From Halichondria panicea (lineage: Eukaryota > Porifera > Demospongiae > Suberitida > Halichondriidae): a DNA stretch of 64,000 nucleotides. How positions within the stretch are numbered: position 1 is the stretch's first letter; the number at the start of each line of letters is the position of its first letter. The DNA lies in contig NC_087379.1 in assembly GCF_963675165.1 (NCBI RefSeq), forward strand, positions 7,532,339 to 7,596,338, written 5' to 3'. A program made the position numbers and the translations under genes. Under the pieces are notes generated by a model. The model was not told the DNA's origin and did no database searches. It saw only the letters and a list, made by a program, of their open reading frames with translations. Below are positions 2,372-52,963 of this stretch, piece by piece.

Positions 2372-2700
2372 CTATGTCAGTTTACTATTATCTAGGCAAT
2401 GTTTATATACTTTACTTGCAATCTCATATTTCTTTAATCTTAGGAGTAGTTTCACTAGAGTTCTATAAGTTGCAGCAGCTGGGTTTCTACTCTGCCACAG
2501 GGACAAGCATTGCATCATGGCCGTTTGCGTGTCTTCTAAAACTTTAATCTGCCTCACATCAGCTTGCTGAGCAGGAGTGAGTCCCAACGCTAGACTGTAC
2601 ATTTTCACGTTGTCCAAATGAGCCGCCAAATAAACGAACTCTGTTGTCTCAATCTCGTTGTTGAGTAGAGGGTGTTCAATGTCTATCCTCTCTGCCAGGC
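2372..2700 (-). CDS. Terminal death-domain exon, copy A
   Basis: Acceptor CACACTGCAG, then [17 protein letters not shown] and a death-domain core ([39 protein letters not shown]). It ends LDNSKLT-stop. It enters in phase 1, matching exon 3158-3209. The first half is like copy B's terminal exon but the last ~35 residues match the relic at 37597-37698 better. Confidence 0.85.
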
Positions 2701-5700
2701 CTGCAGTGTGGATAGGGTGAGGGTCAGCATGGTGTGGATTGCAATACAATGACAATACATAGCTCAGAGGAGGTCTGGAGTCTGACTCTCATGCAGAGAA
2801 GTATGGCTCCTGGGGAGTAGGATCCCAGAGTCAGCTAACAGAGACAAACCAGACACAATTCTAGCTTTCCCAGAGGCTTATGTTTCAAATAATAGCCGCG
2901 TTTAGATTGCTAGTACGCAAAAAGCTTTTTAGGTTTAGCTCGCGCCTTTTCTGCGAAAAAAAGACTTCTTTGCAAAATCTGCCAAATTTTAAGCCTTAGT
3001 TTTAATGCTACAAGTTTCCCTACGTACAAATTGTGATGCCTAAATCACCAGGTAAGCCAAACTGAGCAGTGATAGACACACACAGACAGACAGACTGACA
3101 GACTGACAGACTACTGTAACCGAAGCCGCCTACGCACCTCGGGTTAATTATACTTACCACCATGAGTAAGATGACAAATATCAGGAGAGATGTCGCTGGT
3201 AGCTTTTGTCTGTAAAGAGAAATCAAATATTAGCTACTTGTGTTTGTAACGTAGAGTATAGAACATGTACTGTAAAAATTTATACAAAATAAAGCTTTCA
3301 ATTGTAATATAGTTGATAGTTTCCCACCTTAATGGTTGCTGCAATGTCCCCACGAGCAATGGCGGGAGACTCTAGTGCTCTAATAAGGGCACACCAGGAG
3401 GGGGGAGGAGAGGAGCGCTTCACCCAGTGTGTCAGCATGGCCTCAAAGCACGGCTCAACCCAGTGATAGTCCTTCTCAAGACTCTGTATCAGTACACACA
3501 GTGAAACACAGTATTAAATACTTAGTAAGAGCTCAACATTACGTTGCTATAGTAATCTGTTAAATAAGTTGGTACTTCATACAAGACCACACCAAATATG
3601 CAGAGTCAGCATTGCTATAGATACCTCATTCTAAAAATGTAATGCTCACTATTCAACCATTAAATAACCGCAGCAGTCAATTAAATAGTGCACACACATA
3701 ATTAGGACTACACTGGGAGAATACACTCAAGGTGGTGGAGGGACACATTCTTAAGGTCTCACCTTCCTAGTTGCATAGTCAATGTCCAGTTCTATAGCCA
3801 GGCTGTACCAGTCAGAGCGTATCTCTTTGATCACTTCCTTCACATCTGCAAACAGCTGATCAGTTTCAGAGCTGGAGGTGTTCTCTGTAACAATTGAAAT
3901 TGTAAATAGATGATTATACATGTACAGTACACACGTAACAATGTATTATACATGTACACATTACACACATTATAATCTGCATACAAGCTCTAACATTATT
4001 CTCACCAACACTCTCTTTGAGGCAGTGGTACACGGTGAAGAAATGCTTCTGGTTCTTGGAGATCTCACAACTGATAAAGCCCTTGAAGTGACCATGTGAC
4101 GAAGCCTTGAATTCCAACTTGTGTTCATCACCATCAATTTCAGGACTTCTTTTGCTCCACTCGAAGGAGAGGCTCTTGTCCCTCAACTCTCGCCTAGAGG
4201 CAAAGGGCAGAGCCTTGAGAGTAACATCCTCTCTCAGACTGACTTCCTGTACACAGGGATACGTACTAGTTAATGCACGGTTGCAAGTGCTCTATATATT
4301 ATGGATATTATTGGCCAATAGCTCGAGGCGAAGCCGAGTGCTACATGATGCTTCGAGAACTTCCGCGAGGCCAAAATATCCATAGAGCACGAGCATAAAA
4401 CAGTGCATTAACTGGTTTGTAACTTTTAGCTGCTTGCAGCTACCAATAGCTATCGGCTCTAATATGTAGAATAGCAACTTTCTACGAAAATATTTTGCTA
4501 TTCCTGATTCTGGAGAGTCTGCAATGGCCTTCAACGTACTGGTAAGCAAAACTAGCCTTTACTCGAGAATAAAGCCTTTGTTAGAAAGATAGCATTGCTA
4601 GAAGCTTATAGAATCACTTAGCTGTACTCGCATTGCAACCATGGAGCAGTTGTAGCTATTATAAAATTCTATGGCTTAAAATCAATTATTTTGACCACCA
4701 ACTGTGCTCTAACTACCAAAAATTCCAACCACAGAATAATAGAGCACAGTTTGTGTTTACTACAGTTGTAGATCCTAGTCTATGGCATTTGCATAGTTCT
4801 TCCTTTGATCTTTGTACAAAAAACAATGTACAATGAATGCTTGCACACATAATATTAATAGTTAAATACACAAAAAACTGTTATAATCTGATACTAAAAT
4901 TAAATGCTAGTACACAGGAATGGTAATTCTTATAGTGCATACACTGTAACTGTTAGTTCACTTACTTCTGCGAACCAGCATTCTTGGTGAGGACTCAGAG
5001 AGACTTTGCTGGTGCATTTAAAGCAGGGATCAGCTCCAGGTGTGAGGAGACAAAGCTTGGAACCATCTTCATGTTTGCCACAGTAGCAGTCGAAGGCAAT
5101 GATTGGAGTGAGTAGTGGACTGATGTCCTTCATCACCAACAGGAGGGTTGAGAGGACGTAGGAACAAAGCTCGTGCATCGTATGGTCCCTGTCCTGTCGA
5201 ATAATCCGTATCTCATAGCAATCGACGTTAGCGATAAGGGTAACAAAATGCTTGGCAGATTCGTCAATGTGAAAGGAGACGAGGTTTCTCTTTACTGAGG
5301 TATCAGTGGCAAGTTTCCAAGTCATGCCCAGAATTCCAGTACTCCCCCTTGAGACCAATTCACTGATCATGGCACAAAATACTCCAATGGGAACGTATTG
5401 GGGTTTGAATGTGATCTTGATTGGAGAGGGTGTATCAATGCCAGTGGGGGGTGGTTTCGTTAGTTCCTCGCGAGATGCACACTTGAGAATAGCGGGGATG
5501 AAATATGTCGTTTCAACTTCTTCTGTGGTATGGTCTTCCTCCACTGTTGTGATTTTGGCCAAAAGGTGGGAATGCTCGAGCAGTATGAGCAGCTTCTCAA
5601 CAGGAATCAACTGGTCTTTCTTCACCCCCTGGTTTTCCTCCGAATGGCATCGAGTGATTGTTTTCAGTAAGAATGAACCCTTGAGTATCCAATTTTTTCT

Positions 5701-8700
5701 CTCATTATCGTTAAACTGAATATTGCCCTCTTCAGAATGGAGCTCCAGCAGCGGATTGACAACGAGAACACTGAGGCTGTTGAATACCACTTGGGGGTTG
5801 CAAATGACAAAGTTTCCAAACCAACCATCTTTATCCTTGATCTCTGGATGATATATCAAAGCTCCGACAAATCGATCAAGGTACCAAACGGTGAATCGAA
5901 CTTCCTCCTCACTCATCTTTAACCCCTCGGTACCGATACGAATGCATTCTTCCATAGACACAATGTCATACTCTTTTCTCAGTACAACTCCCAACAAAAG
6001 CTGTTGTGGGCGAATTCGAAGCTTGGCATCTTTGAAATAGCTACTGAATATGCCATGAAGATGTTCACGAAGAGGTTCCATATCAGAATCAGTGCCTTCA
6101 TAGTTGTCGACTGCTATGAACTTCTTGTCTTTTGGGTGTGAAAGTAATTTCTCAAACTTGCTGGTAATCTTGCTCACAGCTTCGTTTTTCTCTGTCAACT
6201 TTTGCTCTAAGCGGTCTTGGACATCTTTCTTGAAAGTGTCTGAGTTGAGGTGTTGGCTGACTGTTTGCTCAATGGCAGCCATGTCTTCTGCACTGACGTT
6301 AGCAGGCTCATCACTCTTCAGTAGAGTCAAAATATTCCGAATTGCTTTCTTTTGTTCGTGTTCATTTAGGCTCTTGTCGGCAGTGGTACTATCGCTCTTG
6401 CTGGCAGTGGTGCTATCGCTCTTGCTGGCAGTGGTGCCATCGCTCTTGCTGGCAGTGGTGCCATAGCTCTTGCTGGCAGTGGTGCCATCGCTCTTGTCGG
6501 CAGTGGTGCCATCGCTCTTGTCGGCAGTGGTGCTTTCGCTCTTGCTGGCAGTGGTCTTGCTGGCAGTGGTACTATCGCTCTTGCTGGCAGTGGTACTATC
6601 GCTCTTGCTGGTAGTGGTATTGCTGGCAGTGGTGCTATCGCTCTTGCTGGCAGTGGTGCTATCGCTCTTGCTGGTAGTGGTCTTGCTGGCAGTGGTACTA
6701 TCGCTCTTGCTGGAAGTGGTACTATCGCTCTTGTCGGCAGTGGTACTATGGCTCTTGCTGGCAGTGGTACTATCGCTCTTGCTGGTAGTGGTACTATCGC
6801 TCTTGTCGGCAGTGGTACTACTATGGCTCTTGCTGGCTGTAGTACTATCGCTTTTGCTGGCAGTGGTACTATCGCTCTTGCTGGTAGTGTTACTATCGCT
6901 CTTGCTGGCAGTGGTACTATCGCTCTTGCTGGCAGTGGTCTTGCTGGTAGTGGTCTTGCTGGCAGTGGTACTATTGCTCTTGCTGGCAGTGGTACTATCG
7001 CTTTTGCTGACAGCTTTTGTGGAGGCACAACATTTCTCGTACAGGAGATCGACTTTGATTTGCATTGCCAGTTCATCCTTGAAAGTACCTATGAGGGTAG
7101 CAACAGGCTTAGCAGAGCCTAGATTGCCCAGTTTACTACACTGCTCTCTGTCAATGTCCGAGTCAATCTTGGTATGGTGGCTGATAGCTGACAGGATTTG
7201 AGAGAGCGTTTCTCTGCTTGTGTACGTTGAATCGTATGGTGTGATCTTGTCCTTTCCTCGTTCGTACGAGACTTGACACATGTCATCGAGGTCTTTGTCC
7301 AGTCGAAAGAATACTAGGAAAATCCCTGCGCCTTTGCTTAGAAAAGGAAACATCTCCACAAATCCAGGCTGCCCACCTATATCGACCAGATTGAGTAGGA
7401 CTTTGTTCAGCAGCTCTTTAGTGTACTCTCCTGAACCCACAATACTCCGGAGTCTCGAGACAACCTTTCCAACATCTACAGTAGTCACTTTCACGACCTT
7501 TTCCGGTGGTTCTGGTGTTGGTGATACCGGTGTTGGTGACACCGTTTCTTTGGGTACAGTAGCAGTTTCATCGATCTTGAGTTGAGTTTGCTTCTTTGGG
7601 TCAGTGGTTTCTTTTTTGGGCTGTTCCTTAGGTGTACTAGTATTGCTGACAGTGCTGTCTTCAATAGGTTCACAGGACATAAGGTAAGAGAAGATAAACT
7701 GTGTTTCTTCCTCTAGACTTGAAGACGCTTTGAATTCAAGCTTTGTTCCAGATTTGTCCACAAAGGCCAATACTTGTTCACACTCGGCTAGTAATGTACT
7801 GCAACGTTTCCTTTGATCTTCAGGCAGCAAAGACAGGTTAGTGATGGATCCAACAAGCCGCTGTCGAGTGGTCGTTTTTCCAAGACCCGAGGGACCAATG
7901 AAGTGCGTCTTGAGATAATGTAGCTCTATAGTGCCACTTGTGTCGGCCATCATCTCACCCAGTTTCTTTAAGTAGGTTCGGTTTTGAATATTGACTGCAA
8001 AAAAGTAAACAATCGGTAATATTATTGAACCAAAGTAGTGGTAAATAATTATTATTTTTGTGGCACATTTTTGTATCAAAATTAAGGTCCGATTGATATA
8101 AATAATGAAAGCACCGCGGGTGCTGATGCCTCGGTGGAGGTGCCAAGCTACATAACATAAAGCTACTAATAGCTAGCTTTTATACACACATTGATTATAA
8201 TTATCACGATAAACATTTTTAATTTTGTTGCGCAGAATACACAATCACAGGGAAACTCAAATAGTGGGTAATGATCGACGATGATTGTTGTTAAAAACGA
8301 TCGATGCCAAAAGTTCAAGTCTAAAATTAATGGCTGCAAGTCAGCACAGCCTTCCAGCTCTCTTCTCACTCTTGCAGCTACCAATAGCTAGCGTTCTAGT
8401 GCAGAGCTAACTACTAAGTAGAGTAGCAACACTCTGTGAACAAGTTTTGCTACGGACTCTTCTGAAAAGGCTGCAATGGCATTCCAAGTAAGCAAAACTA
8501 GGCATAATTCGAGAACGAAGCTTTATTTTGCAAATCCACAAATATGAATCTATGACTAGAAGCCTATAGAAACTCTTACTTGCATTTCATTGATCCTTGA
8601 GCAGCTCTAACAGTCAATACACAAACACACTAGCTACCCTATACCTCGCTTGTACTCAACAGTGCAGTCTAGGAGAGACGTGTACAAGCATGCATGCATG

Positions 8701-11700
8701 ATGGTCACAATTTATAGGGATTCTTCTCTGTTGTGATTTCAATATTAATACCGGTAATTACGGATAGAGTCGAATAGCTACTTAGTAGAGGGCTTAGGCG
8801 GAGGGTGGTTATCACCTGACATGTAGTAACATGTGTACATGTACTTACGTTGGGTCAATTGCTGACAGATTTGATGAGCTGTGTCTCCTTTCCCCAATCT
8901 CAGTGCGATATCCAGTAGAGCTCTGTAAGTTGCTTGTGAAGGATTATGTTGTTTCCAGATTTGCAAGCACTTCATCATGGCTGCTTGAGTTCCACGTGAT
9001 TGGTTCACATCGGCTTGTTCAGCAATAGCTAGCCCCATTGCAGTTGAATAAAGTTCCACATCATCAAAACATAAGGCCAATTCGGGAGTATCAGGGTCAT
9101 CTATTTCACTGTTGAGTTGCTCGTCAGTCAGATTGTATTGCTCTACTAGTTCTTGAAGAGTGACTCGTTTAGCGGATGGTCCTATAATTATACATTGATT
9201 AGTGGCGTGAACAATTATCATAACACCAATGCAGCTAAGCTTCCATACTCAATGTTGGAGACATAAGGCCATGCATGCAAAGTCAATTTATAGTTTCTCA
9301 GGCTATTATTCCTAAAATAGCAAGCGGATTGAGGCATATTTGATAAACATTAATGATAATAATATTCATAGAATTTTAATTGAAAACACACCCCTAACTT
9401 CCTCAATAAGCGGAAGTGCATAATTTTTACTAATTAATTTTAGTCATAATTATTTCATGACCAAAAAACCATACAAATTTATCCTTTTCTTTTCTTTAAT
9501 TTGAGGTCACACATGTGATATTGTAAAGCTGCCAATTTCGAGCGCGAGGGCCTGAGAAACTACAAATTGACTTTGCATGGCATAATGATGGTAAGATATG
9601 GGGCAGGTGAATTATCTGCAGTATAGAATAATTATGCCTATTAAGTAGGTAAATTATATTCTTTTGCAGAATGAGTAACTGAGTCTGAGTTTGGTAAATT
9701 ACCAGCTGACGAGCTAGTTCAGATTATAGTGAGACAAGAATTGTTAGGTACAGTAGCGTCACTGTACTTTATATTGACCGCTACTGTACCAGAGGAGGTA
9801 CGACATCCGCGTGTCATCCGCATGTCTTTAACGCACACATTTCTTAGGTCAAAGTTCGGAATGTGTGTGTTTAAGACACGCGGATGTCGTACCTCCTCTG
9901 CTACTGTAGAACACTTCCACACACAATATTATAGTTATAGCCTTGTTCCTGCTGACATACCTAATTTAGAAGGCACCTCTTCTCTGACTGTATCATGGTC
10001 CTGTGAAGAGCAATACAATATAATACATATTCCACGCTTCAATTATCCATGCAATGCACGTCTACTAGAATACTAATCGATACTGTACAATATGTACACC
10101 TATAGCTTGAATGCTAACAACACCTCTTGATCCTCACCACAGATACTAACATGAGCCACAACAATATACAATAATAGGCTATACCGAAAAGGAAGGGGAC
10201 CAGGCCTCCCTGTGTAAATGGTTGAAACACTCCGCGTTATGATTTTGCGCTCGCGAATATTTTCGTTTTGACCGTACTCTGGTTGTTATTTCAACTATTT
10301 CTAGCTCTCCTATCTACTAGCGATCACTCAGGGCTGGGAGGTACTCTAGAGAAGTAAGTTTACACCACCATGACTTCTGACAAGCTCTAAGTCCGTTGTC
10401 TTTACTCTGTTTTTAATTTTTGTTCACTATGTTATTCATTGCAAATTTGATTTCACAGTTTATGCAACAGCATGTGGTTGTGACGGAGGGTTGAAGAAAC
10501 GCCTACTACTGTTTTAAGTGGAGTTGCGTACTCTTCCTCTTGGTGAAAGGTTGATTAATGTGTTTTTGATGAATGTTACAGTATTTGTAATTCAGGAACA
10601 ACAAACTCTTAAACTAAAACACTTATGATCAATGCAGAGGAGGCTAATTGTACCTCCTCTGTGATCAGTGTGTGCATTATTGAGGTATGGACTCACATGT
10701 GATTCAGTAGCTTCCTCCAGCAGCTTTATTATTGAAGGGTTAGAGTATTTTGATCTCTTGGCCTTCATCAGAACAGTCCATCCATCCTGTGATGATGATC
10801 ATATGAAGGGATGAGACGTACATTGTAAGAGGTAAAGTGGTCTAATGCGTATTACATGTAATTTGCTGACAGAGCAATACTGGCAATGGTAATTGCATAT
10901 TAAGAGGTTGGGGATATCTGTTAAGGTACAAATGACTGGGACATCAGTTTAAAGCACTAAGGAAATGTACAGTCATGCATGTGATTGTCAGTACATGTAC
11001 TTAACAATGATGTACAGTACACCTACAACTGCATGTATATATACGTATGTACGTCACAGAAAATTTAGCAAATCAGACACCCTACAAGAGTGAGAGCATA
11101 CGGTAACTTTTGAGAACACATCTGTGCGATAGACCATAAATAAAGTAAAGGAAAGGGATTGGCAAAGAACAAAAATGCAACTATCTAGCTATGTTGTTAA
11201 ACTGTACAACCTTTTTAAGTGCTACGTACGTATCATAATTATTCATTTGTGTACAACATATCCACGAAAATGTATGCAGCCCAGTTCGTCAACTTAGACA
11301 CAAATAAGCAAGATAAGCGTAAAATTATAAGCAAAACGTAACAATTAAAATACTGGCAATGTGCATAATTGTAAGTACATGCGCAAATATTTCATTTGCC
11401 AAATGCTGCCTATAAACACAATCAGATACTCACCTTGTTAGCCAGGTCCACCACTGCTCCTGAGGAGAGCAGCTCTCTAGTACAGTCAGTGTGACCTTCA
11501 TAGGCTGCCCACATGAGTGGAGTCCACCCATCCTACAAGAGTGAGAGCATAATAATAACTTTTGACAACACATCTGTGTGATAGATCATAGTTACACTTA
11601 TTTTTGGAATTTACCATTTGCCCCAAACTGAGTGTGCAGTGAGCGTAGTTTACAGCGCCCAAATCAACTTTTATAACCTCACAAATATTATGGTGGCGCT

Positions 11701-14700
11701 TAAGCGCACAGCTATTCTAGTGTTGAGTGCAAACTTTCAGTATGCAGTGGACCAACTGTACGGTTTGATTTTTCGTCTCTGTATTTTACAGCAGCTCTAC
11801 AAATCAAATGCATGTGCATAATAAAAGAAAAGCCGACTGCCTTGAGCCTGACATCACAAATAATTACGTCTTTTAATTACAGCAACCGTTGGAGGACTTA
11901 AATAATGGAATTCAGTCAGAGTTGGTGCTGTAATTACAAATAAAGTAAGGATTGGCAATATTTACTATAATAGAGTGGTTGCATCTGACGTCATCCATCC
12001 ACACACACAAAAGTACATAACACTAACTCTAACCTTTCAGCAAGTTAGCTCGTAGTTGAGTGACGGTAGATTAAAATCCACACAAACCAAAATAATAGTC
12101 AACCCAATCAATTCCATGGAATGCTTGTCAACAATTATTCAGCATAGAGGTGATTTTAAGGCAATGTCCATGTATAATTATAACTCCTATAGACCATCAG
12201 TTTAGTATCAGATACTCACCTTGTCAGCCAGGTCCACCACGGCTCCTGAGGAGAGCAGCTGTATAACACAGTCAGTGTGACCTTTCCTGGCTGCCTCCAT
12301 GAGTGGAGTCCGCCCATCCTACAAGAGTGAGAGCATAATAATAACTTTTGACAACACATCTGTGTGATAGATCATAGTTACACTTATTTTTGGAATTTAC
12401 CATTTGCCCCAAACTGAGTGTGCAGTGAGCGTAGTTTACAGCGCCTAAATCAACTTTTATAACCTCAAAAATATTATGGTGGCGCTTAAGCGCACAGCTA
12501 TTCTAGTGTTGAGTGCAATCTTTCAGTATGCAGTGGACCAACTGTACGGTTTGATTTTTCGTCTCTGTATTTTACAGCAGCTCTACAAATCAAATGCATG
12601 TGCATAATAAAAGAAAAGCCGACTGCCTTGAGCCTGACATCACAAATAATTACGTCTTTTAATTACAGCAACCGTTGGAGGACTTAAATAATGGAATTCA
12701 GTCAGAGTTGGTGTAGCCTCGATCCCAGTCCGCACTTCCTCGAAGAGTGGGCCTGGTATCGACTGCTTGCGCATGCGCTAATCTTCCGCCGGTATCTGGC
12801 GGATTCGGATAACAACGTGTATGGTCAGTAAAACTATGACATCACAACGAACGGAAGTGGATTGAAGGAAGTAGATAGAAAGTTCGATTGAAGGTTTCTA
12901 GCCCATCGGATAGATAGCTACCCTTAGCCTGCTATGTTAACAAAAGACTCACAGCCTGCAACAGTGTTGATGACAATCGTCTGAACGGAATGAAAGCTGA
13001 CAAGAGCCTATATGGACTGGCCACGCCCATTTAACATTAACTTTGGTGAAAGTCTACTATACTACTGATGCTGATTCTATCAGAAGAAAATAGCTGTACA
13101 ACAACCTACACAGCTCTGTCTCTAGCTAGCTAGCTATATAGCTCTGTGTATGACCTTTAGGATATTTTCTCTGATGAATTCTGTATTATAGGAAATTTTA
13201 CGGGAAAAAATAAATAATTTAGCGCATGCGCAAGCAGTTGATAGCAGGCCTTCTTTTCTATGAAGGCCGGTGAAGGAGGCTAGAGTTGGTGCTGTAATTA
13301 CAAATAAAGTAAGGATTGGCAATATTTACTATAATAGAGTGGTTGCATCTGACGTCATCCATCCACACACACAAAAGTACATAACACTAACTCTAACCTT
13401 TCAGCAAGTTAGCTCGTAGTTGAGTGACGGTAGATTAAAATCCACACAAACCAAAATAATAGTCAACCCAATCAATTCCATGGAATGCTTGTCAACAATT
13501 ATTCAGCATAGAGGTGATTTTAAGGCAATGTCCATGTATAATTATAACTCCTATAGACCATCAGTTTAGTATCAGATACTCACCTTGTCAGCCAGGTCCA
13601 CCACGGCTCCTGAGGAGAGCAGCTGTATAACACAGTCAGTGTGACCTTTCCTGGCTGCCTCCATGAGTGGAGTCCGCCCATACTACAAGAGTGAGAGCAT
13701 AATAATAACTTTTGACAACACATCTGTGTGATAGATCATAGTTACACTTATTTTTGGAATTTACCATTTGCCCCAAACTGAGTGTGCAGTGAGCGTAGTT
13801 TACAGCGCCTAAATCAACTTTTATAACCTCAAAAATATTATGGTGGCGCTTAAGCGCACAGCTATTCTAGTGTTGAGTGCAATCTTTCAGTATGCAGTGG
13901 ACCAACTGTACGGTTTGATTTTTCGTCTCTGTATTTTACAGCAGCTCTACAAATCAAATGCATGTGCATAATAAAAGAAAAGCCGACTGCCTTGAGCCTG
14001 ACATCACAAATAATTACGTCTTTTAATTACAGCAACCGTTGGAGGACTTAAATAATGGAATTCAGTCAGAGTTGGTGCTGTAATTACAAATAAAGTAAGG
14101 ATTGGCAATATTTACTATAATAGAGTGGTTGCATCTGACGTCATCCATCCACACACACAAAAGTACATAACACTAACTCTAACCTTTCAGCAAGTTAGCT
14201 CGTAGTTGAGTGACGGTAGATTAAAATCCACACAAACCAAAATAATAGTCAACCCAATCAATTCCATGGAATGCTTGTCAACAATTATTCAGTATCAATG
14301 TCCATGTATAATTATAACTCCTATAGACCATCAGTTTAGTATCAGATACTCACCTTGTTAGCCAGGTCCACCACTGCTCCTGAGGAGAGCAGCTGTATAA
14401 CACAGTCAGTGTGACCTTTCCTGGCTGCCTCCATGAGTGGAGTACTCCCATTCTACAAGAGTGAGAGCATAATAATAACTTTTGACAACACATCTGTGTG
14501 ATAGATCATAGTTACACTTATTTTTGGAATTTACCATTTGCCCCAAACTGAGTGTGCAGTGAGCGTAGTTTACAGCGCCTAAATCAACTTTTATAACCTC
14601 AAAAATATTATGGTGGCGCTTAAGCGCACAGCTATTCTAGTGTTGAGTGCAATCTTTCAGTATGCAGTGGACCAACTGTACGGTTTGATTTTTCGTCTCT

Positions 14701-16248
14701 GTATTTTACAGCAGCTCTACAAATCAAATGCATGTGCATAATAAAAGAAAAGCCGACTGCCTTGAGCCTGACATCACAAATAATTACGTCTTTTAATTAC
14801 AGCAACCGTTGGAGGACTTAAATAATGGAATTCAGTCAGAGTTGGTGCTGTAATTACAAATAAAGTAAGGATTGGCAATATTTACTATAATAGAGTGGTT
14901 GCATCTGACGTCATCCATCCACACACACAAAAGTACATAACACTAACTCTAACCTTTCAGCAAGTTAGCTCGTAGTTGAGTGACGGTAGATTAAAATCCA
15001 CACAAACCAAAATAATAGTCAACCCAATCAATTCCATGGAATGCTTGTCAACAATTATTCAGTATCAATGTCCATGTATAATTATAACTCCTATAGACCA
15101 TCAGTTTAGTATCAGATACTCACCTTGTTAGCCAGGTCCACCACTGCTCCTGAGGAGAGCAGCTGTCTAACACTACCAGTGTGACCTCCCCTGGCTGCCC
15201 ACATGAGTGGAGTACTCCCATTCTACAAGAGTGAGAGCATAATAATAACTTTTGACAACACATCTGTGTGATAGATCATAGTTACACTTATTTTTGGAAT
15301 TTACCATTTGCCCCAAACTGAGTGTGCAGTGAGCGTAATTTACAGCGCCTAAATCAACTTTTATAACCTCAAATATATTATGGTGGCGCTTAAGCGCACA
15401 GCTATTCTAGTGTTGAGTGCAATCTTTCAGTATGCAGTGGACCAACTGTACGGTTTGATTTTTCGTCTCTGTATTTTACAGCAGCTCTACAAATCAAATG
15501 CATGTGCATAATAAAAGAAAAGCCGACTGCCTTGAGCCTAACATCACAAATAATTACGTCTTTTAATTACAGCAACCGTTGGAGGACTTGGAATTCAGTC
15601 AGAGTTGGTGCTGTAATTACAAATAAAGTAAAGGAAGGGGATTGACATTATTTACTATAATAGAGTGGTTGCATCTGATGTCATCCACCCACGCACGGAA
15701 GTACGTAACATTCCTTTCAGCAAGCTAGCTCGCAGGTGATCTACTGTGTGATTTTTTGTCTCTGTAGGAAGCTGCTTCTCGATAGTTTTATCAAATCAGG
15801 AGTGGTGATCAAAGCATGCACATAACAATGTTATAGGCCAAGTAAAGGTGACTTGCCTTGGTATGCCTTTTATAAGCCATAAAAATTATTACAGCAACTG
15901 CTGGCGCTAATTTAGGACCTAAAATTGCGTTCAGTCTGAGTTCTAGCTGAGTTTGCGCTGTACTAGGGTACAGTTGAACAGCCAAGACCAGGAAGTTCAA
16001 TGTAAATGCCGTACATTTATTTAAGTATGCATTATGTATTGAATACACCATTGGTTGAGTTTGTCGGATTGGGTAGGTATTAAAATTAATTTATAGCACG
16101 ACAGCAAAAATAAACTTTCACAGCTTCAGTTCTACATACCCACAAACCAGCTTACCCAATTCACACTGTTGACATCCTCTCCCCTCCTGATGGCATCTCG
16201 CAAAGCACTCAAGTCACCAGCCTCGGCAGCCCTGAGTATGTCAGCCAT
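2372..16248 (-). CDS. ANK - death domain - ROC-like GTPase/COR - death domain - death domain protein, copy A
   Basis: Spliced gene of 12 coding exons, reconstructed from GT-AG sites and phase. Exons from the start: 16248-16156, 15222-15124, 14452-14354, 13682-13584, 12318-12220, 11532-11434, 10786-10697, 10000-9961, 9181-8849, 7994-4966, 4246-4006, 3884-3763, 3483-3328, 3209-3158, 2700-2372. They total 4,980 nt, an exact multiple of 3 (1,659 aa). Domains: N-terminal cap 1-31, five 33-residue ankyrin repeats 32-196, a degenerate repeat to 226, linker, death domain ~240-350, P-loop GPSGLGKTT ~384-392, G3-like DIGGQPG ~555, G4-like GTFKDE ~653, Lys/Ser/Thr octapeptide insert ~677-890, COR-like region ~970-1200, beta-rich exon, split death domain, terminal death domain. 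No signal peptide or membrane segment is seen, so it is probably cytosolic. The start MADIL is preferred over an in-frame MII because copy B lacks the upstream ATG. The role (immune or death signalling switch) is inferred. The joins lack transcript proof. Confidence 0.85.
4268..4413. mobile_element. MITE in GTPase-gene intron, copy A only
   Basis: Foldback of 146 bp with ends AGTTAATGCAC and GTGCATTAACT. Internal arms TATGGATATT...TTGGCC and GGCCAAAATATCCATA also pair. The matching intron in copy B (39829-39922) is only 94 bp and lacks it. Confidence 0.6.
4416..4640. repeat. Dispersed repeat related to 8375-8610
   Basis: Shares blocks such as GCAGCTACCAATAGCTA, GAGTAGCAAC-like and GTAAGCAAAACTAG with 8375-8610 (and with 43525-43745 in unit 2). 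Noncoding, within the intron that is longer in copy A. Confidence 0.5.
4966..7994 (-). CDS. Large GTPase/COR exon, copy A
   Basis: 3,029-nt exon with acceptor TTTTTTGCAG and donor GAA|GTAAGT. It contains P-loop [27 protein letters not shown] (switch II/G3 as in ROCO GTPases), IGTFKDEL (G4-like), then the octapeptide insert. After the insert come [20 protein letters not shown] and a winged-helix/COR-like region with [14 protein letters not shown] and [17 protein letters not shown]. The apparent ORF extension upstream to 8,079 is intronic: it crosses the acceptor and differs from copy B. The copy B equivalent is 39923-43056. Confidence 0.88.
6374..7010 (-). repeat. Octapeptide (KSDSTTAS) coding minisatellite inside GTPase exon, copy A
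   Basis: 24-bp tandem repeat coding for Lys-Ser-Asp-Ser-Thr-Thr-Ala-Ser and variants ([14 protein letters not shown]), about 210 residues. It lies after the G4-like motif and before the next conserved GTPase/COR block. Both other frames of this tract are also open, giving large shadow ORFs. It is probably an unstructured, Ser/Thr-rich, possibly phosphorylated loop (inference). Confidence 0.9.
8849..9181 (-). CDS. First death-domain exon, copy A
   Basis: 111-codon exon entered and left in phase 1. It encodes a death-domain-like fold: [18 protein letters not shown], then [18 protein letters not shown], then [18 protein letters not shown]. The downstream donor is a strong GTAAGT. Reading past it gives a short junk tail and a stop, so a separate small ORF here is unlikely. 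It receives one nucleotide from the 40-bp exon 9961-10000 and passes one to the GTPase exon. The copy B equivalent is 43991-44323. Confidence 0.85.
9267..9580. mobile_element. MITE inserted in copy A only (5-bp target duplication)
   Basis: Terminal inverted repeats GGCCATGCATGCAAAGTC ... and GACTTTGCATGG, extending to TTTCTCAGGC/GCCTGAGAAA. Flanked by CATAA at 9262-9266 and 9581-9585. Copy B (around 44400) has a single CATAA and no element. Confidence 0.75.
9790..9900. mobile_element. hAT-like MITE inserted in copy A only (8-bp target duplication)
   Basis: 111-bp element with near-perfect ~26-bp inverted ends starting CAGAGGAGGTACGACATCC. Flanked by CTACTGTA at 9781-9788 and 9901-9908; one extra C sits at 9789. 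Copy B (around 44605) has one uninterrupted CTACTGTA. An 8-bp duplication and CAG ends are typical of hAT elements. Confidence 0.8.
9961..10000 (-). CDS. 40-bp micro-exon linking ankyrin repeats to the death domain, copy A
   Basis: Bounded by an acceptor after CTCTTCACAG and a donor GTATGT. It encodes [13 protein letters not shown] plus one base. Its length (1 mod 3) is exactly what is needed to join the phase-0 ankyrin exon at 10697 to the phase-1 death-domain exon at 9181. Copy B has the same exon at 44666-44705 ([13 protein letters not shown]). Too short to be found by ORF length alone. Confidence 0.75.
10697..15222 (-). repeat. Tandem ankyrin-exon cassette array, copy A (6 exons)
   Basis: Six single-repeat exons: 15124-15222, 14354-14452, 13584-13682, 12220-12318, 11434-11532 (99 bp, phase 0 in and out) and the diverged 10697-10786 (90 bp). 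Each 99-bp exon encodes one ankyrin repeat of form xGxTPLMxAAxxGHT...LLSSGAVVD. The introns between the five regular exons are almost the same sequence, so the duplicated unit is exon plus intron (spacing 770-786 bp, or 1,364 where a transposon is inserted). Phase-0 symmetry means copies can be gained or lost without breaking the frame. Confidence 0.9.
12714..13282. mobile_element. Nonautonomous DNA transposon, MULE-like (9-bp target duplication)
   Basis: 569 bp with imperfect inverted ends of ~65 bp (TAGCCTC ... ACTGCTTGCGCATGCGCTAA and its reverse). Flanked by GAGTTGGTG at 12705-12713 and 13283-13291. It interrupts one ankyrin-cassette intron; the other cassettes show the empty site. No transposase ORF. 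Confidence 0.8.
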
Positions 16249-37980: not shown

Positions 37981-40900
37981 CTATGTATTCTCTAGGCAAT
38001 GTTTAAACACTTTACTTGCAATTTCGTCTGTTCTCATATTTTGGAGTACTTTAATAAGAGTTCTATATGTTGCAGTAGCTGGGTTTCTACTCTGCCACAG
38101 GGACAAGCATTGCATCATGGCCGTTCGTGTGTCATACAAAACTAGAAACCGCCTCACATCAGCTTGCTCAGGAGGAGTGAGTCCCAACGCTAGAGAGTAC
38201 ATTTCCACGTTGTCGAAGTAAGCGGCCAAATATGCGAACTCTTTTCTATCAATCTTGTTGTTGAGTAGAGGGTGTTCAATGTCTATCCTCTCTGCCAGGC
38301 CTGTAGTGTGGATAGGGTGAGCTAGGTCAACATGGTGTGGATTGCAATACAATGACAATACATAGCTCAGAGGAGGTACGACACAGCAAAGAAGCCTAGA
38401 GTCTGACTCTCATGCAGAGAAGTATGGCTCCTGGGGGAGTAGGATCCCAGAGTCAGCTAACACAGACAAACCAGACACAATTCTATAGCTTTCCCAGAGT
38501 CTTATGTTTCAAATAATAGCCGCGTTTAGATTGCTAGTACGCAAAAAGCTTTTTAGGTTTAGCTCGCGCTTTTTCTGCGAAACAAAGACTTCTTTGCAAA
38601 ATCTGCCAAATTTTAAGCCTTAGTTTTAATGCTACAAGTTTCCCTACGTACAAATTGTGATGCCTAAATCACCAGGTAAGCCAAACTGAGCAGTGATAGA
38701 CACACACAGACAGACAGACTGACAGACTGACAGACTACTGTAACCGAGGCGCGTAGGTTAATTATACTTACCACCATGAGTGAGATGACAAATATCAGGA
38801 GAGATGTCGCTGGTAGCTTTTGTCTGTAAAGAGAAATCAAATATTAGCTACTTGTGTTTATAACGTAGAGGATAGAACATGTACTGCAACAATTTATACA
38901 AAATAAAGCTTTTAATTGTAATATAGTTGATAGTTGCCAACCTTAATGGTTGCTGCAATGTCCCCACGAGCAATGGCGGGAGACTCTAGTGCTCTAACAA
39001 GGGCAGACCAGGAGGGGGGAGGAGAGGAGCGCTTCACCCAGTGTGTCAGCATGGCCTCAAAGCACGGCTCAACCCAGCGATAGTCCTTCTCAAGACTCTG
39101 TATGACACACAGTGAAACACAGTATTAAATACTTAGTAAGAGCTCAACATTACGTTGCTATAGTAACCTGTTAAATAGGTTGGTACTTCATACAAGACCA
39201 CACCAAATATGCAGAGTCAGCATTGCTATAGATACCTCATTCTAAAAATGTAATATTTAAATGCTCACTATTCAACCATTAAATAACCGCAGCAGTCAAT
39301 TAAATAGTGCACACACATAATTAGGACTACACTGGGAGAATACACTCAAGGTGGTGGAGGAACACATTCTTAAGGTCTCACATTCCTAGTTGCATAGTCA
39401 ATGTCCAGCTCTATAGCCAGGCTGTACCAGTCAGAGCGTATCTCTTTGATCACTTCCTTCACATCTGCAAACAGCTGATCAGTTTCAGAGCTGGAGGTGT
39501 TCTCTGTAACAATTGATTAAATTATACATGTACAGTACACACGTAAAAGCGTCATAATTATAATCTGCATACAAGCTCTAACATTATTCTCACCAACACT
39601 CTCTTTGAGGCAGTGGTACACGGTGAAGAAATGCTTCTGGTTCTTGGAGATCTCACAACTGATAAAGCCATTGAAGTGACTATTTGACTTGACTTCCAAT
39701 TCATTTTCAGTCCCACTAATTCTGGGTCTTCTCTTGCTCCACTCGAAAGAGAGGCTGTTGTCCCTCATCTCTCGCTTAGAGGCAAAGGGCAGGGCAAGGA
39801 GGAACACATCATCCCCGAGGCTGACTTCCTGTAATTTATTAAAGATACAGAAATGATATAGGTCACTGTATGTATGAAGAATTAAAATGCTATAGTACAC
39901 GTATGCACTAGAGTTCACTTACTTCTGCGAACCAGCATTCTTGGTGAGGACTCAGAGAGACTTTGCTGGTGCAGCATTTAAAGCAGGGATCAGCTCCAGG
40001 TGTGAGGAGACAAAGCTTAGAACCATCTTCATGTTTGCCACAGTAGCAGTCAAAGGCAATGATTGGAGTGAGTAGTGGACTGATGTCCTTCATCACCAAC
40101 AGGAGGGTTGAGAGGATGTAGGAACAAAGCTCGTGCATCGTGTGGTCTCTGTCCTGTCGAATAATCCGTATCTCATAGCAATCGACGAGAGCGATAAGGG
40201 TAACAAAATGCTTGGCAGATTCGTCAATGTGAAAGGAGACGAGATTTCTCTTTACTGAGGTATCAGTGGCAAGTTTCCAAGACATGCCCAGAATTCCAGT
40301 ACTCCCCCTTGAGACCAATTCACTGATCATGGCGCAAAATACTCCAATGGGAACGTATTGGGGTTTGAATGTGATTTTGATTGGAGAGGGTGTATCAATG
40401 CCAGTGGGGGGTGATTTCGTTAGTTCCTCGCGAGATGCACACTTGAGAATAGCGGGGATGAAATATGTCGTTTCAACTTCTTCTGTGGTATGGTCTTCCT
40501 CCACTGTAGTGATTTTGGCCAAAAGGTGAGAATGCTCGAGTAGTATCAGCAGCTTCTCAACAGGGATCAACTGGTCTTTCTTCACCCCCTGGTTTTCCTC
40601 CGAATGGCATCGAGTGATTGTTTTTAGTAAGAATTGACCCTTGAGTATCCAATTTTTTCTCTCATTATCATTGAACTGAATATTGCCCTCTTCAGAATGG
40701 ACCTCCAGTAGCGGCTTGACAACGAAAACACTGAGGCTGTTGAATACCACTTGGGGGTTGCAAATGACAAAGTTTCCAAACCAACCATCTTTGTCTTTGA
40801 TCTCTGGATGATATATCAAAGCTCCGACAAATCGATCAAGGTACCAAACGGTGAATCGAACTTCCTTCTCTGTCATCTTCAACCCCTCGGTACCGATACG

Positions 40901-43900
40901 AATGCATTCTTCCATAGACACAATGTCATACTCTTTTCTCAGTACAACTCCCAACAAAAGCTGTTGTGGGCGAATTCGAAGCTTGGCATCTTTGAAATAG
41001 CTACTAAACATGCCATAAAGATGTTCACGAAGAGGTTCCATATCAGAATCAGTGCCTTCGTAGTTGTCGACTGCTATGAACTTCTTGTCTTTTGGGTTTG
41101 AAAGTAATTTCTCAAACTTGCTGGTAATCTTGCTCACAGCTTCGTTTTTCTCTGTCAACTTTTGCTCTAAGCGGTCTTGGACATCTTTCTTGAAAGTGTC
41201 TGAGTTGAGGTGTTGGCTGACTGTTTGCTCAATGGCGGCCATGTCTTCTGCACTGACGTTAGCAGGCTCATCACTCTTCAGTTGAGTCAAAATGTTCCGA
41301 ATTGCTTTCTTTTGTTCGTGTTCATTTAGGCTCTTGTCGGCAGTGGTACTATCGCTCTTGCTGACAGTGGTGCTATCGCTCTTGCTGGCAGTGGTGCTAT
41401 AGCTCTTGCTGGCAGTGGTACTATCGCTCTTGCAGGCAGTGGTGCTATCGCTCTTGTCGGCAGTGGTGCTATCGCTCTTGCTGGCAGTGGTCTTGCTGGC
41501 AGTGGTACTATCGCTCTTGCTGGTAGTGGTCTTGCTGGCAGTGGTGCTATCGCTCTTGCTGGTAGTGGTCTTGCTGGCAGTGGTACTATTGCTCTTGCTG
41601 GCAGTGGTACTATCGCTCTTGCTGGCAGTGGTGCTATCGCTCTTGTCGGCAGTGGTGCTATCGCTCTTGCTGGCAGTGGTCTTGCTGGCAGTGGTACTAT
41701 CGCTCTTGCTGGTAGTGGTCTTGCTGGCAGTGGTGCTATCGCTCTTGCTGGTAGTGGTCTTGCTGGCAGTGGTACTATTGCTCTTGCTGGCAGTGGTACT
41801 ATCGCTCTTGTCGGCAGTGATACTATGGCTCTTGCTGGCAGTGGTACTATCGCTCTTGCTGGTAGTGGTACTATGGCTCTTGTCGGCAGTGGTACTATGG
41901 CTCTTGCTAGCAGTGGTACTATCGCTCCTGCTGGCAGTGGTACTATCGCTTTTGCTGGCAGTGGTACTATCGCTTTTGCTGGCAGTGTTACTATCGCTCT
42001 TGCTGGCAGTGGTTTTGCTGGCAGTGGTACTATCGCTTATGCTGGCAGTGGTACTATTGCTTTTGCTGACAGCTTTTGTGGAGGCACAACATTTCTCGTA
42101 GAGAAGATTGACTTTGATTTGCATTGCCAGTTCATCCTTGAAAGTACCTATGAGGGTAGCAACAGGCTTTAGGGCAGTGAAGTTAGCAGAGCCCAGTTTA
42201 CTAAACTGCTCTCTGTCAATATCCGAGTCAATCTTGGTATGGTGGCTGATAGCTGACAGGATTTGAGAGAGCGTTTCTCTGCTTGTGTACGTTGAATCGT
42301 ACGGTGTGATCCTGTCTTTTCCTCGTTCGTAGGAGACTTGACACATGTCATCGAGGTCTTTGTCCAGTCGAAAGAATACTAGGAAAATCCCTGCACCTTT
42401 GCTTAGAAAAGGAAACATCTCCACGAATCCAGGCTGCCCACCTATATCGACCAGATTGAGTAGAACTTTGTTCAGCAGCTCTTTAGTGTACTCTCCTGAA
42501 CCCACAATACCCTGGAGTCTCGAGACAACCTTTCCAACATCTACAGTGGTCACTTTCACGACCTTTTCCGGTGGTTCTGGTGTTGGTGATACCGGTGTTG
42601 GTGACATCGTTTCTTTGGGTACAGTAGCAGTTTCATCGATCTTGAGTTGAGTTAGCTTCTTTGGGTCAGTGGTTTCTTTTTTGGGGTGTTCCTTAGGTGT
42701 ACTAGTATCGCTGACAGTGCTGTCTTCAATAGGTTCACAGGACATAAGGTAGGAGAAGATAAACTGTGTTTCTTCCTCTAGACTTGAAGATGCTTTGAAT
42801 TCAAGCTTTGTTCCAGATTTGTCCACAAAGGCCAATACTTGTTCACACTCGGCTAGTAATGTACTGCAACGTTTCCTTTGATCTTCGGGCAGCAAAGACA
42901 GATTAGTGATGGATCCAACAAGCCGCTGTCGAGTGGTCGTTTTGCCAAGACCCGAGGGACCAATGAAGTACGTCTTGAGATAATGTAGCTCTATAGTGCC
43001 ACTTGTGTCGGCCATCATCTCATCCAGTTTTTTTAAGTAGGTTCGGTTTTGAATATCTGTAAAAAAGTAAACAATCGGTAATATTATTGAACCAAAGTAG
43101 TGGTAAATAATTATTATTTTTTGGCACATTTTTATATCAAAATTGAGGTCCGATTGATATAAATAATGAAAGCACCGCAGGTGCTGATGCCTCGGTGGAG
43201 GTGCCAAGCTACATAACATAAAGCTACTAATAGCTAGGTTTTATACACAGATTGATATAAATAATGAAAGCATCGTGGGTGCTGATGCCTCGGTGGAGGT
43301 GCCAAAGCTACATAACATAAAGCTACTAATAGCTAGCTTTTATACACACATTGATTATAATTATCATGATAAACATTTTTAATTTTGCTGCGCAGAATAC
43401 ACAATCACAGGGAAACTCAAATAGTGGGTAATGATCGACGATGATTGTTGTTAAAAACGATCGATGCCAAAAGTTCAAGTCTAAAATTAATGGCTGCAAG
43501 TCAGCAGAGCCTTCTAGCTCTCTTCTCGCTACCAATAGCTAGCGTTCTAGTGCAGAGCTAACTACTAAGTAGAGTAGCAACACTCGGTAAACAAGTTTGG
43601 CTACGTGCTCTTCTGAAAAGGCATTCCAAGTAAGCAAAACTAGGCATAATTCGAGAACGAAGCTTTATTTTGCAAATCCACAAATATGAATCTATGACTA
43701 GAAGCCTATAGAAACTCTTACTTGCATTTCATTGATCCTTGAGCAGCTCTAACAGTCTACACACAAACACACTAGCTACCCTATACCTCGCTTGTACTCA
43801 ACAGTGCAGTCTAGGAGAGACGTGTACAAGCATGCATGCATGATGGTCACAATTTATAGGGATTCTTCTCTGTTGTGATTTCAATATTAATACCGGTAAT

Positions 43901-52900: not shown

Positions 52901-52963
52901 CCTGATGGCATCTCGCAAAGCACTCAAGTCACCAGCGATGGCAGCACTGAGTATGTCGGCCAT
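37981..52963 (-). CDS. ANK - death domain - ROC-like GTPase/COR - death domain - death domain protein, copy B
   Basis: Paralogue of the gene at 2,372-16,248 with the same architecture and exon phases. Exons: 52963-52871, 51978-51880, 51167-51069, 50380-50282, 49593-49495, 48098-48000, 46964-46866, 46606-46508, 45839-45741, 45485-45396, 44705-44666, 44323-43991, 43056-39923, 39828-39594, 39503-39382, 39097-38942, 38823-38772, 38300-37981. The sum is 5,367 nt (1,788 aa), in frame throughout. It has eight full ankyrin repeats plus the degenerate one (five plus one in copy A) and a Lys/Ser/Thr insert about 35 residues longer. One extra repeat, exon 45741-45839, diverges from the others (DGDTPLMEAAHYG) and its counterpart is deleted in A. 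The protein ends HCLENT, whereas A ends HCLDNSKLT. Both copies look intact, so neither is an obvious pseudogene. Confidence 0.85.
39923..43056 (-). CDS. Large GTPase/COR exon, copy B
   Basis: 3,134-nt exon, the same domain series as 4966-7994 with scattered substitutions. The acceptor differs slightly (TTTTTTACAG followed by ATATTC), so the first codon becomes His instead of Leu-Asn, with phase kept. The octapeptide insert is about 100 bp longer. All GTPase motifs ([23 protein letters not shown]) are conserved. Confidence 0.88.
41330..42068 (-). repeat. Octapeptide (KSDSTTAS) coding minisatellite inside GTPase exon, copy B
   Basis: Homologous to 6374-7010 but about 100 bp longer, with a different order of variants (KSHSITAD, ISDSTTAS). 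Contraction and expansion kept the frame. Confidence 0.9.
43150..43345. repeat. Local ~115-bp tandem duplication, unit 2 only
   Basis: The block ATTGATATAAATAATGAAAG ... GGTGCTGATGCCTCGGTGG ... ACATAACATAAAGC occurs twice in a row here and once in unit 1 (8092-8185). It lies in the intron before the GTPase exon. Confidence 0.75.
48592..49298. mobile_element. Nonautonomous TA-target DNA transposon, copy B only
   Basis: 707 bp with 28-bp inverted ends (CTCTGTGTAGTTAAGGCC / GGCCTTAACTACGCAGAG). The TA target is duplicated at 48590-48591 and 49299-49300. Empty sites exist in sister cassettes. No transposase ORF is evident. Tc1/mariner-type target use; superfamily uncertain. Confidence 0.8.
48871..49000. 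mobile_element. Nested palindromic insert within the 48592 element
   Basis: 130 bp bounded by CCAGCGGGGGAAG and CTTCCCCCGCTGG. ATATT-like sequence flanks both sides. It may be a second MITE nested in the first or a subterminal palindrome of the host element. Confidence 0.5.

Follow-up and report, generated by a model that had tools for sequence, protein, structure and literature searches.

To our knowledge, cytosolic immune switches of animals have mostly been described as NACHT/NLR proteins. Roco proteins fall into three architecture groups according to the available part of PMC6337361, and in that account a death domain occurs only in the third one, the DAPK1 group, which is restricted to animals and has no leucine-rich repeats. 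The domain order of DAPK1, ankyrin repeats included, is given in the accessible portion of PMC12365538 as kinase-ANK-Roc-COR-death domain. In brown algae the leucine-rich repeats of ROCO proteins are encoded by shuffled exons of 72 bp in phase 2, for which the available sections of PMC11378527 also report alternative splicing. A third point of comparison is the sponge Amphimedon, where according to PMC8195603 a wide range of architectures is found among 357 proteins that couple domains of the death superfamily to ankyrin, SH3, SH2, kinase and further ones.

The locus described here lies in a window of 64,000 nt, the whole stretch analysed, from the sponge Halichondria panicea (NC_087379.1, 7,532,339-7,596,338, forward strand); all coordinates are window-based. 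An earlier note on this DNA had proposed that separate open reading frames, together with a 40-bp micro-exon, join into one frame. When the gene model was rebuilt independently from splice signals and reading phase, a product of exactly 1,659 aa was obtained: 15 exons on the minus strand, from 16248 to 2372, form one open frame with a stop codon, GT-AG borders are present at all 14 introns, the phases are consistent throughout and the 4,980 coding bases contain no stop or frameshift. The predicted product consists, in order, of an ankyrin cap, six ankyrin exons, the micro-exon, a first death domain (DD1), a GTPase exon of 1,010 codons, an 80-residue linker, a split second death domain (DD2) and a third one (DD3). 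Exon 1 (16156..16248, minus strand like all features below) carries the start codon and the N-terminal ankyrin cap in 31 codons, phase 0, and has a 90% identical counterpart in a second copy in the window. Five ankyrin exons of 99 bp follow in the model at 15124..15222 (phase 0-0; Pfam Ank in the joined protein), 14354..14452, 13584..13682, 12220..12318 and 11434..11532, the last of which is matched by Pfam Ank when scanned alone (E 3.3e-10), and the sixth is degenerate, with 90 bp (10697..10786). The micro-exon (9961..10000) is entered in phase 0 and left in phase 1, and DD1 occupies a 333-bp exon of phase 1-1 (8849..9181). The GTPase exon (4966..7994, 3,029 bp) contains the P-loop GPSGLGKTT, the switch II DIGGQP and the G4-like GTFKD, and then a COR-like region; 24-bp tandem repeats at 6370..7013 encode a linker rich in Ser/Thr/Ala/Lys, which joins the Roc-like to the COR-like part and is variable or absent in paralogs. 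The linker exon of about 80 residues (4006..4246), in which Pfam found nothing above its cut-off, separates the COR-like part from DD2, whose two exons (3763..3884 and 3328..3483, the second being DD2b) are supported by the model and by Pfam on the joined protein. A second micro-exon of 52 bp (3158..3209) precedes DD3 and the stop codon (2372..2700). The second copy of the same gene lies at 37984..52963 and has more ankyrin exons (8 by pattern versus 5). Taken from sequence, the predicted gene structure is well supported.

As in DAPK1, so far as the cited portions describe it, ankyrin repeats precede and a death domain follows the Roc-COR GTPase, and leucine-rich repeats are missing: the best Death stretch (1454-1520) is C-terminal of the GTPase, and no leucine-rich repeat is among the Pfam families listed. 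Unlike DAPK1, the sponge protein appears to have no kinase, since no protein kinase family is in the Pfam listing of the 1,659-aa model, and the gene was therefore not filed as DAPK1. It also differs in the extra death domain before the GTPase and the two after it, in a long insert in the Roc-like part, and in being one of many copies in a family that devotes a separate exon to each ankyrin repeat. The Roc-COR core is shared with LRRK1/LRRK2 and MFHAS1, but leucine-rich repeats and kinase were not found in the sponge gene by the Pfam scan; LRRK-type ORFs do exist in the same genome (L021 and L022, architecture judged by eye). The brown-algal ROCO genes, in the part of PMC11378527 available, are likewise an expanded Roc-COR family in which the recognition repeat is one exon of constant length and phase, tandemly duplicated and variable at binding positions, whereas the sponge ankyrin exons have 99 bp and phase 0 and are accompanied by death domains. 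The combination of death domains with ankyrin repeats is common to the Amphimedon set, which in the accessible text of PMC8195603 is centred on TRADD-N and not on a Roc-COR GTPase; TRADD-N is absent among the Pfam families listed for the 1,659-aa model. No ANK-DD-Roc-COR-DD sponge family was recognised in the literature by title or abstract opening, in a search with subscription titles mostly outside its scope and hence with absence unproven.

The GTPase had been called ROC-like in the earlier note. The Ras-like GTPase motifs of the Roco family are present in the exon: GxSGxGKTT and DIGGQP, at G1 and G3, do not vary among the 17 GTPase exons that were aligned out of 22, and the G4-like motif reads GT(F/Y)(K/Q)D in the gene's own subfamily, GTHKD in L031 and GTHLD in the in-genome LRRK-type ORFs. 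These we take to be the Ras-like P-loop, the DxGGQ switch II and the Roco-type G4. Pfam on the joined protein matched neither Roc nor COR, and on the 17 paralog exons the matches were weak, with Roc in 10 (best E 0.0023) and COR-A in one (E 0.036). A profile of the gene's own subfamily (A1) was aligned to the in-genome LRRK-type Roc-COR at an hhalign probability of 6.3 and matched P-loop fragments only in the PDB. The profile of more divergent relatives (A3) reached 95.8 over 310 columns, and its best PDB match was LRRK2 (E 0.005 over 44 positions). Of 14 ORFs selected for COR, A1 recovers eight (L025, L026 and L029-L034) with E values from 1e-24 to 1e-174, and L025, L026 and L033 exceed the Pfam COR-A cut-off; for L023 and L027, taking the longest ORF had left out the COR frame. 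Homology through these intermediates thus points to a COR region after Roc in the GTPase exon. The ROC-like reading stands mainly by way of the intermediates, the match of the own subfamily being weak, and of the four profiles proposed for a check of the full protein, Ank and Death were matched while Roc and COR were not. NACHT and NB-ARC are absent among the 10 Pfam families listed for the 1,659-aa model and among the 25 families shown, of 26, for the 17 paralog exons; switch II is Ras-like, and the NACHT or NB-ARC NTPase of NLR/STAND proteins was not found in these listings. The GTPase is the sole catalytic domain predicted in the protein. A single-sequence AF2 model of the GTPase exon was discarded (pLDDT 36).

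Pfam on the joined protein gave Ank_2 at 4.9e-47 and Death at 1.5e-12 in three stretches, as would be expected if the three modules were death domains, which had been the earlier reading. Scanned alone, the DD3 exon exceeds the Death cut-off (23.2 bits against 22.6), the DD1 exon is below it (19.2 bits, E 0.0014; 20.6 bits in another scan), the second half of DD2 is far below it (E 0.14) and the first half is unmatched. Among the members of a death-domain profile (A5), 17 of 18 match Pfam Death at E <=1, the best at 2.3e-5. The AF2 model of DD1 has a pLDDT of 88.1, and its nearest solved folds are the death domains of RAIDD, FADD, p84 and RIPK1; Foldseek gave a probability of 1.00 to the first three at E 0.08 to 0.2, and the VIA-align Z was 12.8, values near 13 being possible by chance for helical bundles. 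By profile match for DD3 and the A5 members and by the six-helix death fold for the DD1 model, the gene's modules are placed in the death domain family. Against the PDB, the A5 profile did not match any death domain; its matches were helical-repeat design proteins over about 33 residues, the best at E 2.3e-6. Since death domains lead the fold matches of the DD1 model, these were taken to reflect similar helix hairpins.

The ankyrin exons were compared in a set of 21, from which four of another type were removed and two identical ones merged, leaving 15. Their overall dN/dS is 1.52, with 15.5% of column bootstraps at or below 1, so overall positive selection is not claimed. Six positions give a ratio of 4.55, having been chosen after inspection of the data. 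A fairer test is that of seven positions known from designed ankyrin proteins, which presumably face the ligand: their mean entropy is 1.27 versus 0.58 for all positions (P 0.006). Among the 12 ankyrin units of the window the exon difference (0.116) is smaller than that in the preceding 60 bp of intron (0.236, ungapped), and thus the ankyrin exons are not outrunning neutral change.

The domain order, which had seemed an oddity, is not that of a lone gene. The GTPase exon occurs at at least 44 loci in the genome, and DD1 lies directly upstream of it, on the same strand and at 775-1558 bp, in all 10 C3 copies beyond 5 Mb; at the 34 remaining loci no DD1 was found within 3.5 kb upstream. Seven of these copies, both window copies among them, were read in detail. 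All seven keep the exon order from the ankyrin exons through micro-exon, DD1, GTPase, linker and DD2 to the second micro-exon, and have intact splice sites at the first micro-exon and at DD1. DD3 is present in four (both window copies, L004 and L005), the sequence piece of L003 stops short of its position, and L001 and L002 have a DD2b-like exon in its place. Among the seven copies the COR-like half has a dN/dS of 0.19 and the Roc-like half one of 0.43; DD2b is an exception, with 46.5 nonsynonymous versus 5.5 synonymous pairwise differences from few events. A 97%-identical DD1 exon is present in another context. The family has expanded by duplication and apparently also by exon shuffling. A tblastn search for relatives found none among 128 bacterial or archaeal and 58 viral-contig pattern stretches.

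These data are probably best explained by one multi-exon gene of an expanded ANK-DD1-Roc-COR-linker-DD2-DD3 family acting as a switch. The product, which would be translated from a single mRNA and bind GTP, would most likely be a DAPK1-like Roco switch that lacks a kinase and feeds into death-domain signalling, and a role as a putative innate-immune or cell-death switch is plausible. The ankyrin array could bind a partner or a foreign molecule as ligand, and this binding would shift the Roc-COR unit to another nucleotide or dimer state. Such a change may free or cluster the death domains, which in turn would recruit other death-domain proteins, and the output could be inflammatory or cell-death signalling. 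If this is true, Roco GTPases would be a second platform of cytosolic immune switches near the base of animals, and DAPK1 would be placed within a larger repertoire. The sponge family, in which dozens of copies set ankyrin repeats and several death domains around a Roc-COR GTPase, would then also offer an exon-level route to repertoire change, by one ankyrin repeat per exon and phase-1 death-domain exons.

A possible, though rather doubtful, alternative is that the protein is a scaffold of ordinary cell biology, in adhesion, the cytoskeleton or development, in which the death domains merely oligomerise and neither immunity nor cell death is involved. Death domains and Roco GTPases also have non-immune roles, and DAPK1 binds the cytoskeleton according to the available part of PMC6337361. 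Such a scaffold fits less well with the large expansion into many very similar copies and with the raised variability at ankyrin positions expected to contact ligand. A large expansion with variable ligand-facing positions is more typical of recognition families.

It is improbable that two genes adjoin here, with an adaptor of the ANK-DD1 type occupying 16.2 to ~8.78 kb and GTPase-DD2-DD3 encoded separately, behind a non-coding first exon, from the in-frame ATG at ~7.95 kb near the beginning of the GTPase exon. The DD1 frame does continue beyond its donor to a stop at ~8.78 kb that is kept in 6 of 7 close copies (lost in L004), and at 7 of 18 C3 DD1 rows the 10 kb that follow downstream lack a GTPase exon of this subfamily; two of these rows were read, and their context is different. 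However, the in-frame sequence before the ATG ends at an acceptor, the best-scoring one, whose phase is shared by 25 of 26 relatives (in the exception, L016, an AG 4 bases upstream restores it), and 6 of the 26 have no Met at all between acceptor and P-loop (3 of 22 in this subfamily and 3 of the 4 more distant). The GTPase exon therefore looks internal. Phase 1 is common to the donor of DD1 and the acceptor of the GTPase exon, both of which are present in all seven C3 copies; the second window copy has its acceptor displaced by 3 bases with the frame preserved. Substitution rates across the DD1 donor do not decide the matter: the C3 copies arose too recently for exon and intron to be told apart well by their substitution patterns. 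A single gene in the order ANK-DD-GTPase-DD-DD, as had been suggested, is well supported by splice phase, paralogs and the internal-looking GTPase exon. A decayed or chimeric locus, with exons of several duplicated genes aligned by segmental duplication and the working protein lost, would fit the recent, very similar duplications and the broken DD3 pieces near DD1 at other loci, but it is very improbable given the uninterrupted coding bases, the dN/dS values of the two GTPase halves (DD2b being an exception) and the exon order kept to the second micro-exon in every copy read.

A broader and more tentative proposal is that the single-gene switch belongs to a combinatorial cytosolic receptor family, on a Roc-COR core and parallel to the NACHT NLRs. 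A constant GTPase-linker-DD2 cassette entered in phase 1 would take up different N-terminal modules, among them ANK-DD1, tandem SH3 and split death domains and perhaps more, and the death domains at its C-terminal end could likewise be swapped, with ankyrin specificity arising by duplication of single-repeat exons. The brown-algal ROCO receptors with their shuffled exons would then have a counterpart in animals. Exchange of modules at the phase-1 junction is at this stage a lead, for which the SH3-GTPase copies L008, L009 and L020 and the split-DD copies L017-L019 are the candidates. Counter-examples are L013 with mixed phases, L015 with phase 0, and L020 and L011, which have no phase-1 donors. 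For the astacin exon of L016 and the death domain of L011, nothing pointed to one gene with the GTPase exon. A 'ZU5-like' reading of an ORF at L054 was dropped, being unmatched in Pfam. Phase-1 donors were found in an SH3 exon of L008 and in the split death domains of L017. Of the 20 loci fetched, 3 have the tandem SH3 exons upstream, as do 2 of the 6 from C1 among them, the sequence of L007 being partly N.

The gene on the minus strand, rebuilt from 16248 to 2372, has 15 exons. Its introns are all GT-AG, the phases agree throughout, and the joined exons give 4,980 coding bases for 1,659 residues and a stop. An earlier note had proposed that the separate ORFs of this region join into one spliced frame, and the rebuilt model reproduces its ends (16248/2372) and its length of 1,659 aa exactly, with a 52-bp second micro-exon in addition to the exons named there. 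The core of the gene is formed by the 1,010-codon GTPase exon together with five ankyrin exons, each 99 bp long and in phase 0; the exon of the first death domain (DD1) has phase 1-1. As judged from the sequence, the observation of an ANK-DD-GTPase-DD-DD order is confirmed and the architecture is real. The window corresponds to C3:7532339-7596338 in a source genome that comprises 131 Mb in 39 contigs.

The ankyrin and death-domain part of that proposal held in the profile check, as Pfam gave Ank_2 at 4.9e-47 and Death at 1.5e-12 over three stretches of the joined protein. Kinase, NACHT, LRR, Roc and COR were not among the ten families listed for the joined protein, in a scan whose HMMER filters discard most matches above ~0.1. 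When the domains were scanned singly, DD3 scored above the Pfam Death cut-off, DD1 slightly below, and the halves of DD2 far below or without a match. DD1 and DD3 are 41% identical, and when more such domains were collected from the genome, 17 of 18 matched Death (E up to 1, best 2.3e-5). An AF2 model of DD1 from four sequences reached pLDDT 88.1 and pTM 0.78. In Foldseek it was placed first with the death domains of RAIDD, FADD, p84 and RIPK1, with probability up to 1.00 and E of only 0.08; VIA-align against RAIDD gave Z 12.8 and rmsd 1.6 over 88 residues, a Z of ~13 being also reachable for helical bundles through common arrangement. In the structure ranking death domains lead and CARDs come next. 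Genome-wide, at least 148 Death matches were found with 150 of 503 candidates scored. In the second DD2 exon (DD2b, 3328-3483) the differences among seven copies on C3, the contig of the window, are almost all amino-acid changing (46.5 vs 5.5 pairwise, from few events).

A single gene is the favoured reading; less probably, the same exons could be read as two genes, with DD1 ending one and the GTPase exon beginning another. Against one gene, reading past the DD1 donor meets a stop common to 6 of 7 copies, a GTPase exon of this subfamily is missing within 10 kb of 7 of the 18 DD1 rows on C3, and four of the seven copies read yielded a DD3. In favour of one gene, DD1 lies 775-1558 bp upstream of the GTPase exon on the same strand in 10/10 C3 copies beyond 5 Mb. 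Near other GTPase loci it was found in 0/34 within 3.5 kb and 1/34 within 10 kb, where weaker DD1-like exons could be missed because the search scored 150 of 660 candidates. All seven C3 copies compared keep intact splice sites at the 40-bp micro-exon and at DD1. Among the 26 relatives in which a P-loop was recognised, the top-scoring acceptor before the GTPase exon falls in one phase in 25; the exception, locus L016, has an AG in the shared phase four bases upstream, and L031, the 27th examined, falls outside this count as the P-loop pattern did not match it. A methionine between acceptor and P-loop is absent in six of the 26 (L017-L019, 3/22 of the subfamily; L029, L030 and L034, 3/4 of the more distant ones), so in those six the GTPase exon must follow a coding exon.

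The GTPase had also been called ROC-like. The 1,659-aa protein gave no listed Roc or COR match, and the gene's own subfamily barely matches Roc/COR profiles; the link comes mainly through divergent relatives. COR-A has 60 matches in the genome at E up to 0.001, 25 above cut-off, and the subfamily profile recovers 8/14 ORFs drawn from them (E 1e-24 to 1e-174). A joint profile of 13 sequences matched in-genome LRRK-type Roc-COR with probability 95.8 over 310 columns. Among solved structures it matched best to the Roc domain of LRRK2 (E 0.005 over 44 positions around switch II), followed by LRRK2 Roc-COR over 284-570 (E 0.04) and, lower down, other small GTPases. The P-loop GxSGxGKTT and DIGGQP are invariant across 17 aligned GTPase exons of 22 in hand, and a G4-like motif runs from GTHLD (LRRK type) through GTHKD (L031) to GTFKD (window gene). 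Because of the profile matches of the intermediates, the LRRK2 match and the G4-like series, we interpret the exon as a divergent Roc-COR unit in which a long insert separates the P-loop from switch II and a repeat linker precedes the COR-like part. This linker is a coding 24-bp tandem repeat (6370-7013) of Thr-Ala-Ser-Lys-Ser-Asp type; its length differs strongly between paralogs, and several lack it. Two adjoining ORFs at C15:5.14 Mb (L021, L022), both above the COR-A cut-off, appear LRRK-type by eye (LRR, Roc, COR, kinase start).

The GTPase exon is present at no fewer than 44 loci, a lower bound from 99 rows merged by hand with 45 of 2,171 first-look candidates scored. A second minus-strand copy of the gene (37984-52963) has eight ankyrin exons by pattern vs five in the first, and its GTPase-exon acceptor has moved 3 bases with the frame kept. 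At 7.76 Mb (L054, 3199-3531; C3:7759698 on) a DD1 exon stands in another context with broken DD3 pieces downstream. Its protein is 97% identical, and it shares the 333-bp length and the splice signals; DNA similarity covers the exon, 14 bp before and ~200 bp after, a pattern suggestive of exon shuffling, or of gene conversion, affecting a single domain. Other exons lie upstream of GTPase copies on the same strand: tandem SH3 exons (L008, L009, L020; C1 and C15), split exons resembling death domains (L017-L019; those of L017 score 19.7 and 22.0 bits, below cut-off), ankyrin exons (L013), and, before a divergent copy (L015), exons of SH2, RhoGEF and PH-like type that may belong to a neighbouring gene. 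Their joining to the GTPase is putative, phase-1 donors being present in L008 and L017 and not clearly in L013, L015 and L020. In L001 and L002 the next downstream match is a DD2b-like exon instead of DD3. An astacin-like peptidase exon upstream of the L016 copy probably belongs to another gene.

Among 15 distinct 99-bp ankyrin exons (window, L002, L003, L005), variability peaks at positions 1, 3, 8, 11 and 12. Seven positions were tested, which we take to be those randomised in designed ankyrin proteins; their mean entropy is 1.27 vs 0.58 for all positions (P 0.006, random sets of seven) and their pN/pS 4.84 vs 0.93 elsewhere. The overall excess of amino-acid change in the ankyrin exons is not significant, and they are less variable than the flanking introns.

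By analogy with DAPK1, LRRK2 and RAIDD/FADD, the families behind every functional reading here, the ankyrin array could be a variable binding surface, the Roc-COR unit a nucleotide-dependent dimer switch, and the three death domains the output, recruiting other death-domain proteins. DAPK1 is the closest parallel in domain content, but no kinase was found in the window gene; in exon logic the closest are the brown-algal ROCO genes (PMC11378527). The death-domain/TRADD-N expansion of Amphimedon has such domains combined many ways in a sponge (PMC8195603).

Upstream of both gene copies lies a long array of ~90-bp tandem repeats (18234-19936, and the matching part of the second copy at ~54.9-59 kb), inside which a minus-strand frame is open for 361 codons (18263-19348). 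Elsewhere in the genome, silicatein-like exons, taken together with the count of Death matches, suggest that the animal is a siliceous demosponge. The silicatein active-site pattern CGASYAF has three matches, all within 11 kb of C2 (C2:656915-667884), vs 0 for the reversed-pattern control; they mark a cluster of three exons whose translations are silicatein-like by eye.
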